Assembly (NCBI GenBank): GCA_019690095.1
Contig: JADGGD010000004.1
Coordinates: forward strand, 1-64,000
Direction: 5' to 3'
From: Chloroflexota bacterium
GTDB lineage: Bacteria > Chloroflexota > UBA6077 > FW602-bin22 > CADDYW01
DNA length: 64,000 bases
Shown here piece after piece: positions 54,880 to 56,452 of this stretch; within the stretch, counting starts at the first letter, position 1, and each line of letters starts with the position of its first letter. Below the pieces are notes generated by a model that saw nothing but the letters and a program-made list of their open reading frames with translations, made no database searches and had not been told where the DNA came from. The position numbers were made by a program, and so were the translations under genes.

Positions 54880-56452
54880 TCTCTGACGAGCTTGATCCTG
54901 GCTCAGGGTGAGCGCTGGCGGCGTGCCTAACACATGCAAGTCGGACGACGTCGGAACCAGACCCTTCGGTCTGGTTCCAACGAAGTGGCAGACGGTTGCG
55001 TAACACGTGAGTAACCTGCCCCTAAGCCGGGGATAGCCGCCCCAAAAGGGCGGGTAATCCCCGATGTGCTCGCGGGGCGCCGGCTCCGCGAGGAAAGTCT
55101 TCTGGCGAAGGCGCTTAGGGAGGGGCTCGCGGCCTATCAGGTTGTTGGCAGGGTAACAGCCTACCAAGCCGATGACGGGTAGCTGGTCTGAGAGGATGGC
55201 CAGCCAGACCGGGACTGAGACACGGCCCGGCCTCTCGCGGGGCTGATGCCACCGGGGAGGCAGCAGTGGGGAATCGTGGGCAATCGGCGAAAGCCCGACC
55301 TCGCGACGCCGCGTGGGGGATGACGGCCTTCGGGTTGTAAACCCCTTTTGGTCGGGAGGAGGAAGGACAGTACCGACCGAAGAAGCCCCGGCTAACTACG
55401 TGCCAGCAGCAGCGGCGATACGTAGGGGGCGAGCGCTACCCGGACTCACTGGGCGTAAAGAGCGTGCAGGCGGCGGTGGCCGCCGGCGGTGAAAGCCACG
55501 GGCCTAACCCGTGGAGCGCCGCCGAGACCCCACCGCTCGAGGGCGGGAGAGGAAGGCGGAACTCCCGGAGGAGCAGTGAAATGCGCTGATCTCGGGAAGA
55601 ACGCCAGTGGCGAAGGCGGCCTTCTGGCCCGCCCCTGACGTCGAGACGCGAAGGCACGGGGAGCAAACCGGATTTGCTACCCGGGTAGTCCGTGCAGTCA
55701 ACGATGGACACTTGCCGCTGGCGGCCCGGACGGCCGTCGGTGGCGGAGCTAACGCGTTAAGTGTCCCGCCTGGATACTACGGCCGCAAGGCTAAAACCCA
55801 AAGGACTTGGCGTGGGTCCGCACAAGCGGCGGCGCGTGTGGTTTAATCCGATCCAGAACGTAGAACCTTACCAGGGCTTGACGTATCGTCCGTAGGCCCC
55901 GAAAGGGGTCCGATCGGGGTCTGGGCGGCAGTGGACTGCTGTCCCAGACCCCGGCGGCGAGACAGGTGCTGCACGGCTGTCGTCAGCTCGTGCCGTGAGG
56001 TGTTGGGTCCACTCCCAGAACGGGCGAGACCCCTGTCGCCAGTTGCCGGGATCCCGGCTCTCTGGCGAGACTGCCCCCGCAAGGGGGAGGAAGGAGAGGA
56101 TGACGTCCAGTCGGCGTGGCCCGGATGCCCTGGGCCACTCCCACGCGACAGTGGGCAGGACAGAGGGCCGCCAACCCGCAAGGGGGAGCTATCCCGGAAA
56201 CCTGCCCGTGGTTCGGATCGCGGTCTGCAACCCGACCGCGTGAAGCCGGAGCCGCTAGTAACCGCCGGTCAGCACACGGCGGTGAATACGTTCTCGGGCC
56301 CCACACAACTCGTCCGTCACGTCCGGAGTGCTTCCCCTGCCCGAAGGCGGTGACCTGCAGAAATGCAACGCCGCCGAGGGTGGGGGCAGGCCATCCGGAT
56401 GATGCCGTAGCACGGTAGCCGTACGGGAACGTGCGGCTGACGCAAATGCTGC
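54880..56452 (+). rRNA. rrs: 16S rRNA, highly divergent in functional centres
   Basis: About 1.57 kb. Clear landmarks: CTTGATCCTGGCTCAG at the start, TGCCAGCAGC, GGGCGTAAAG, CGCACAAGCGG, GTGCTGCACGGCTGTCGTC and GTACGGGAACGTGCGG at the end. Positions follow E. coli numbering by eye. Usually invariant sites that differ: C526A, U531C, A532G, A790U, A792C, A919C, G926U, C1399U, C1402U, A1493U, A1500G and A1503C. The CCUCC anti-Shine-Dalgarno tail is absent and the hairpin at 339-350 is 16 bases longer. Several changes pair correctly: 923/1393, 1402/1500 and the helix-45 swap. Not a normal translating 16S, yet not randomly decayed. Ends are estimates. Confidence 0.9.

Follow-up and report, generated by a model that had tools for sequence, protein, structure and literature searches.

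The 64,000-nucleotide stretch of DNA analyzed here (hereafter the window; positions 1 to 64,000 of contig JADGGD010000004.1, Chloroflexota bacterium, GenBank assembly GCA_019690095.1) is contig C16 of a 403-contig assembly designated G000, and it carries a full-length 16S rRNA gene followed, after a spacer of 235 nt, by a full-length 23S rRNA gene in the same orientation (Table 1). An ordinary 16S gene and an ordinary 23S gene are present on the 4.9-kb contig C20 of the same assembly; therefore, the 16S gene of the window is a paralogue. Full-length 16S–23S pairs of the window type occur in the assemblies G000, G001 and G002, and 16S 5′ ends of this type occur in G003 and G004, a set that spans five genera and two families. 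We designate these genes the divergent copies; the divergent 16S and the ordinary 16S of the same genome differ by about 27–28%. A further 23S gene (L003), together with the only 5S gene found in G000, is located on contig C100; in the 23S tree it lies apart from the group formed by the class, and its presence may reflect an error of binning.

Altered functional cores of the divergent 16S and 23S

In the covariance alignment, the window reads GAUGCCGUAGCACGG where the Rfam model has GAAGUCGUAaCAAGG, at the top posterior probability. In E. coli numbering, G1491, A1492, U1493, G1494, C1495, G1500 and C1503 correspond to window positions 56401, 56402, 56403, 56404, 56405, 56410 and 56413, respectively, and the retained A1408 corresponds to 56319. 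A preliminary description of the window had placed a U at position 1493 (T56403), and the covariance model likewise gives U and not A there. The other substitutions it had named in and around the decoding site are also present in the alignment: U1495C, G926U, C1399U and A1503C; A923G paired with U1393C; C1402U together with A1500G, a position that is C-G in G001 and G002; and a real C924-A1392 mismatch, so that compensation is incomplete, as had been noted. That description listed only a small part of the changes, and it missed the paralogous second rRNA set conserved across genera, the loss of the anti-Shine-Dalgarno (anti-SD) motif and the altered 23S core.

All three full-length divergent 16S share A1493U, U1495C, A1500G, G1392A, C1397A, A1398C, C1399U and G926U, and their position 1503 is changed from A to C or U (C in the window). 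Over the 3′ decoding strand (56401–56423), G002 is identical to the window and G001 differs by one base; C1407, C1409 and G1491 are unchanged, and an A1408–U1493 pair is possible. A1493, U1495, A1500 and A1503 are present in all 12 ordinary Chloroflexota 16S compared (12 of the 17 full-length ones, with L007, L009, L011, L019, L022 and partial copies left out of the alignment), which rules out ordinary variation within the phylum; the usual bases are likewise found in all 12 at the other changed and retained decoding positions named here. Misalignment is ruled out as well, since MAFFT and the Rfam covariance model agree for the 16S and for the part of the 23S that was inspected. The CCUCC anti-SD is gone from all three full-length divergent 16S, with an ordinary, anti-SD-bearing 16S also present.

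In the 530 loop, C526 is replaced by A or G and U531 by C, and the 505/526 pair, G-A in the window, is A-G in each of the three other divergent copies. Of the three monitoring bases of a translating 16S, A1493 is thus changed in three of three copies and G530 is changed to A in two of four (G002 and G003), with A1492 kept. A1492, A1493 and G530 are described as required for viability, although single chemical groups of these bases can be changed in vitro (PMC5270523). The KsgA loop is kept in the divergent 16S. The divergent 16S of G002 has a large insertion in helix 44, and its divergent 23S has an insertion at the GTPase centre (L034:9253-11013 and L034:5612-9014).

In the divergent 23S, helix 69 (H69), the P loop, the peptidyl transferase centre (PTC), the E site, the GTPase centre and the sarcin-ricin loop are all altered. 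All three copies have (i) C1914U, U1915G, A1916G and A1918G in H69; (ii) A2439 missing and C2452A, A2453G and U2506C in the PTC, and also U2584C and A2058C; (iii) G2253U in the P loop; (iv) A or G for C2394 at the E site; and (v) GCAA or GGAA, G2661A included, where a translating 23S has the sarcin-ricin GAGA. Further changes differ among the copies: A1913 is C in G001 and G in G002, G2252 is U in the window, G2251 is A in G001 with both of these P-loop bases kept in G002, and the GTPase-centre stretch is replaced in G002 only. For the window, the readings of H69, the P loop and the 2440–2456 stretch are borne out by the covariance model. P-loop bases pair with the CCA end of tRNA, and P-loop and sarcin-ricin changes of this kind stop or cripple E. 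coli ribosomes; from this analogy, the P site would be unable to accommodate the end of an ordinary tRNA in at least two of the three divergent sets.

Constraint, distribution and descent

The window 16S forms 430 of 459 canonical pairs, and the other divergent copies form 411/453, 414/454, 241/266 and 110/121. These amount to 91–94% in the full-length divergent copies, compared with 88–92% in 13 ordinary 16S including that of E. coli. Of 424 pairs compared between the window and G001, 404 remain canonical, and 25 show double canonical changes; if the same substitutions were scattered randomly over paired sites, 366.6 ± 3.0 and 4.9 ± 1.9 would be expected, respectively. The other four comparisons between divergent copies give a like result. 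Because compensatory changes between the divergent copies are far above chance, the fold is, on this comparison of sequences, under selection and not in random decay; the loss of constraint on the fold that would mark a pseudogene is not seen. The core changes common to the copies arose before the genera diverged, and pairs were maintained afterwards.

Sites that are invariant in ordinary rRNA also vary less among the divergent copies than variable sites do (16S, 93/736 against 218/748; 23S, 120/1,319 against 364/1,297; two partial 23S were aligned and excluded from the site counts). The invariant sites changed in all three copies are concentrated about 4-fold in functional regions, the limits of which were set from general background, before counting and after the alignment had been seen (16S, 27/187 against 23/549 elsewhere, p = 1.2e-5; 23S, 45/313 against 39/1,011, p = 8.5e-10). 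The GTPase-centre columns of G002 are poorly aligned; hence, the tests were repeated without that region, and the enrichment is retained without the anti-SD and GTPase-centre columns (p = 1.2e-4 for 16S and 4e-10 for 23S). Change within the divergent group is likewise greater in functional regions than at other conserved sites (23S, p = 0.004 without the GTPase centre; 16S, p = 0.006, or 0.098 without the anti-SD columns).

A search with RF00177 of 61 genomes, comprising G000 and its relatives, gave a 16S match in 23. The low-scoring matches all come from one family; those in G000, G001 and G002 are full-length, and that in G003 covers a 5′ part. In G004, of the same order and another family, the 16S 5′ end at the end of contig C139 shares about 85% identity with the window copy over 349 nt. 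A pattern requiring a base other than A at position 1493 matched 3 of 400 Chloroflexota genomes (G000, G001 and G002), where 400 counts genomes and not 16S genes read, many genomes in the sample having no assembled 16S. A strict decoding-strand pattern gave two matches among genome contigs, both in Chloroflexi, and none among viral contigs; on these searches, a foreign or phage origin was rejected. One candidate in G022 (L043) reads as an ordinary 16S 3′ end and was rejected.

The full-length divergent 16S are 82–86% identical between genera, and the ordinary 16S of G000 (C20) and G002 are 82.6% identical. In the trees, the three full-length copies form one clade (support 100/100 for both 16S and 23S) on a long stem (0.40 for 16S and 0.26 for 23S) with tips of ordinary length, and in the 23S tree this clade groups with the ordinary copies of G000 C20, G002 and G011 (98/97). 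The clade, its long stem, the ordinary tip lengths and this grouping together point to an old duplication within the lineage, followed by a burst of change and then renewed constraint. A stub of about 200 nt in G016 (L091:10365-10561), which Rfam does not call, joins the first approximately 75 nt of a 23S to part of a 23S 3′ end upstream of BON and BCAM0308-like genes and is perhaps a deletion relic.

Operon signals and neighbouring genes

The motif ACCTTACCA, which we take to be a boxA, is located 41–42 nt ahead of the divergent 16S in the window, G001 and G002. It is also present in the G003 leader (four of five divergent leaders in all) and is not found in the leader on the G004 contig. The motif recurs 35–90 nt ahead of the 23S in all three divergent spacers; among ordinary leaders, that of G002 has it and that of G013 has a classical-looking variant. 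Behind the spacer motif, a stem closes the 23S in the window, G001 and G002 (for each of them, not one of 500 shuffles matched it), and its sequence in the window differs from those in G001 and G002. The corresponding 16S stem is marginal in the divergent copies (36–49 of 500 shuffles as good), whereas that of the ordinary operon in G002 pairs without a flaw along 20 bases. This short-stem test after boxA replaced whole-arm duplex folding, which was uninformative, and gapped alignment, which gained little. ARAGORN, run on the window only, found no tRNA gene, and no 5S gene was found beside the divergent operon. The ordinary G002 spacer (L093) looks by eye to hold tRNA genes, and the divergent spacers are shorter.

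Genes of the BON and BCAM0308 families start beside the divergent 16S in four of the five genomes (G001, G002, G003 and G004), and in G002, G003 and G004 they are followed by an HPF/S30AE gene. The BCAM0308 assignment was made with NF040826, at scores just above or below the cut-off. The family is named after a Burkholderia locus activated by low oxygen; genes like it are present in 8 of 29 genomes of the class, and a profile of them gave no match among solved structures. One S30AE match was found in each of G000, G001, G002 and G004, two in G003 and none in G005 and G011; the gene beside the divergent rRNA is thus the sole match in G002 and G004 and one of two in G003. The HPF proteins (L034:12766-13323, L035:2618-3175 and L088:1921-2478) have an unusual C-terminal part, and solved structures match them only up to about residue 120 of 185. 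Each of seven genomes searched has one uS12 gene.

Table 1. Features of the divergent operon in the window, with substitutions in E. coli numbering
Feature	Position	Strand	Evidence
boxA-like ACCTTACCA, 16S leader	54839–54847	+	motif comparison of leaders
Putative 16S processing stem, 5′ arm	54853–54863	+	11 bases complementary to 56546–56556; marginal, 49/500 shuffles as good
Divergent 16S rRNA	54880–56452	+	Rfam RF00177, 1193.5 bits, model 1–1533, above gathering score
530 loop with C526A, U531C	55400–55420	+	alignment
Decoding region, 5′ strand (1392–1409): G1392A, C1397A, A1398C, C1399U, C1402U; A1408 kept	56303–56320	+	
Decoding region, 3′ strand (from 1491): A1493U, U1495C, A1500G, A1503C	56401–56423	+	covariance alignment
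16S 3′ tail without CCUCC anti-SD	56440–56452	+	covariance alignment
Putative 16S processing stem, 3′ arm	56546–56556	+	marginal in shuffle test
boxA-like ACCTTACCA, spacer ahead of 23S	56600–56608	+	counterpart in 3/3 divergent spacers
23S processing stem, 5′ arm	56609–56626	+	shuffle test
Divergent 23S rRNA	56688–59670	+	Rfam RF02541, 1947.3 bits, model 1–2925
H69: C1914U, U1915G, A1916G, A1918G	58601–58621	+	alignment and covariance model
P loop: G2252U, G2253U	58961–58976	+	alignment and covariance model
PTC 2435–2456: A2439 missing, A2450G, C2452A, A2453G; A2451 kept	59153–59175	+	alignment and covariance model
PTC 2494–2510: C2496U, U2506C	59211–59227	+	alignment
68-nt insertion in sarcin-ricin stem, window copy only	59372–59439	+	alignment
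Sarcin-ricin loop: GAGA tetraloop to GCAA (GGAA in G001, G002)	59440–59453	+	alignment
23S processing stem, 3′ arm	59683–59700	+	shuffle test

Interpretation and comparison with known systems

We put at about even the chance that the divergent genes are a selected second 16S–23S operon, kept for a ribosome-like fold and no longer for ordinary decoding and peptide synthesis. In the mechanism we propose, the ordinary rRNA operon of this Chloroflexota lineage would have been duplicated to give the divergent operon, the RNAs of which would be transcribed, processed and coated with the ordinary ribosomal proteins of the cell. The resulting particle would be unable to initiate or elongate normally. 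In the least certain part of the scheme, it may serve in stress or dormancy, with the HPF and the BCAM0308-type protein encoded nearby in relatives acting on it. A more specific form, a non-translating second ribosome that is tied to a dormancy locus and has a conserved body, with its sites for reading mRNA, for holding tRNA ends and for triggering translation GTPases abandoned or reset, is more tentative and in our judgment falls somewhat short of an even chance.

Several observations weigh against this reading. A1408, A1492, G1494, A1518, A1519 and C1054 are kept in the divergent 16S, as are A2451, A2602 and G2553 in all three divergent 23S, and the 3′ decoding strand, which hardly differs among three genera, could reflect selection for a new mode of reading. 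No sigma-70-like promoter match was found in the divergent leader. In G000, the HPF, BCAM0308 and BON genes are together on another contig (C10), and in G001 the HPF gene is on the separate contig C109. That the limits of the functional regions were set from general background has to be counted here too, and the within-group excess in the 16S is weak without the anti-SD columns (p = 0.098).

The same retained bases, apart from A1408 and C1054, suit the main rival, which we consider unlikely overall: a specialised ribosome that translates with a rewritten decoding and PTC core, perhaps on leaderless or special mRNAs and under stress. The P-loop bases that pair with CCA are, however, changed in two of the three copies, and differently (G2252U and G2251A); the GTPase centre is rearranged in G002; and the sarcin-ricin stem of the window carries a 68-nt insertion. 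The single uS12 gene per genome also speaks against dedicated equipment, other dedicated factors and tRNAs having been outside the search. Fixation of the new decoding-strand letters in all three copies and retention of the boxA-like motifs and the 23S processing stem agree with a translating role, and 16S rRNAs without an anti-SD are described for other phyla (PMC6107228).

A decaying rRNA pseudo-operon inherited by the family is improbable. It would explain the loss of functional bases and of the anti-SD, the missing adjacent 5S and the insertions in the G002 and window copies; however, the maintenance of pairs far above chance, the lower variation at ordinary-invariant sites in both rRNAs and the between-genus identity, which resembles that of ordinary copies, all speak against decay. 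Slightly less probable still is an RNA of rRNA origin that works outside the ribosome, for instance as a sink that takes up ribosomal proteins, maturation enzymes or a hibernation factor. A sink would fit a fold kept while translation sites change, the retained KsgA loop and the S30AE gene adjoining the divergent rRNA (the only match in G002 and G004), but both rRNAs are full length, which seems to exceed the needs of a simple sink, and the idea shades into the proposed ribosome-like particle. A toxin decoy was set aside, the usual toxin and drug target sites being among the changed ones.

An assembly or binning artefact, that is, a chimeric or foreign contig, is very improbable. The assemblies are drafts with 5–9% estimated contamination in the family, and the C100 23S of G000 is placed outside its class group in the tree, but separate assemblies hold copies that are 82–86% identical and share the boxA-like leader. 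The gene beside the window operon has its best relatives in G002 (68%) and G003 (64%), of the same family. The ordinary operon of G002 lies on a contig of 217 kb, which the divergent contig resembles in GC content (0.635 against 0.636 and 0.634) and in tetranucleotides (r = 0.74 and 0.69 for the divergent flanks against the 217-kb contig, 0.66 for that contig against itself).

Throughout the living world, the decoding adenines, P loop and sarcin-ricin loop are regarded as invariant. An rRNA pair found in nature with a selected fold and lost letters separates the needs of shape from the needs of translation. If the interpretation is true, this would be, to our knowledge, the first natural ribosome-like particle with another task, or else translation by another rule. 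We found no report of such an operon in the open literature, subscription journals and preprints being outside the search.

The divergent rRNA operons of Haloarcula marismortui, Thermobispora bispora, Vibrio vulnificus (rrnI) and E. coli (rrnH) likewise provide a second, substituted rRNA set in one cell, and in these known cases the core is intact. By contrast, the 16S described here differs by over a quarter from its ordinary counterpart in the genome, and its universally conserved core is changed. Divergent operons within one genome have been linked to stress in reviews (PMC11883441 and PMC9586635). Bacteria with anti-SD-less 16S likewise have no CCUCC at the 3′ end; the motif is not required in all bacteria (PMC6107228). 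Here, unlike in those bacteria, an ordinary 16S with an anti-SD coexists. Elsewhere, the anti-SD-less 16S is the one with which the organism itself translates, and its decoding site is normal. Synthetic orthogonal ribosomes also place a second rRNA set with an altered anti-SD beside that of the host, whereas the set described here is natural, is conserved across genera and has changed decoding, P-loop and sarcin-ricin letters. Hibernation by HPF/YfiA resembles the present system in that G002, G003 and G004 carry an S30AE/HPF gene next to the divergent operon; known hibernation uses ordinary ribosomes, and the similarity of the HPF encoded here to solved HPF structures is confined to the N-terminal part, to about residue 120.
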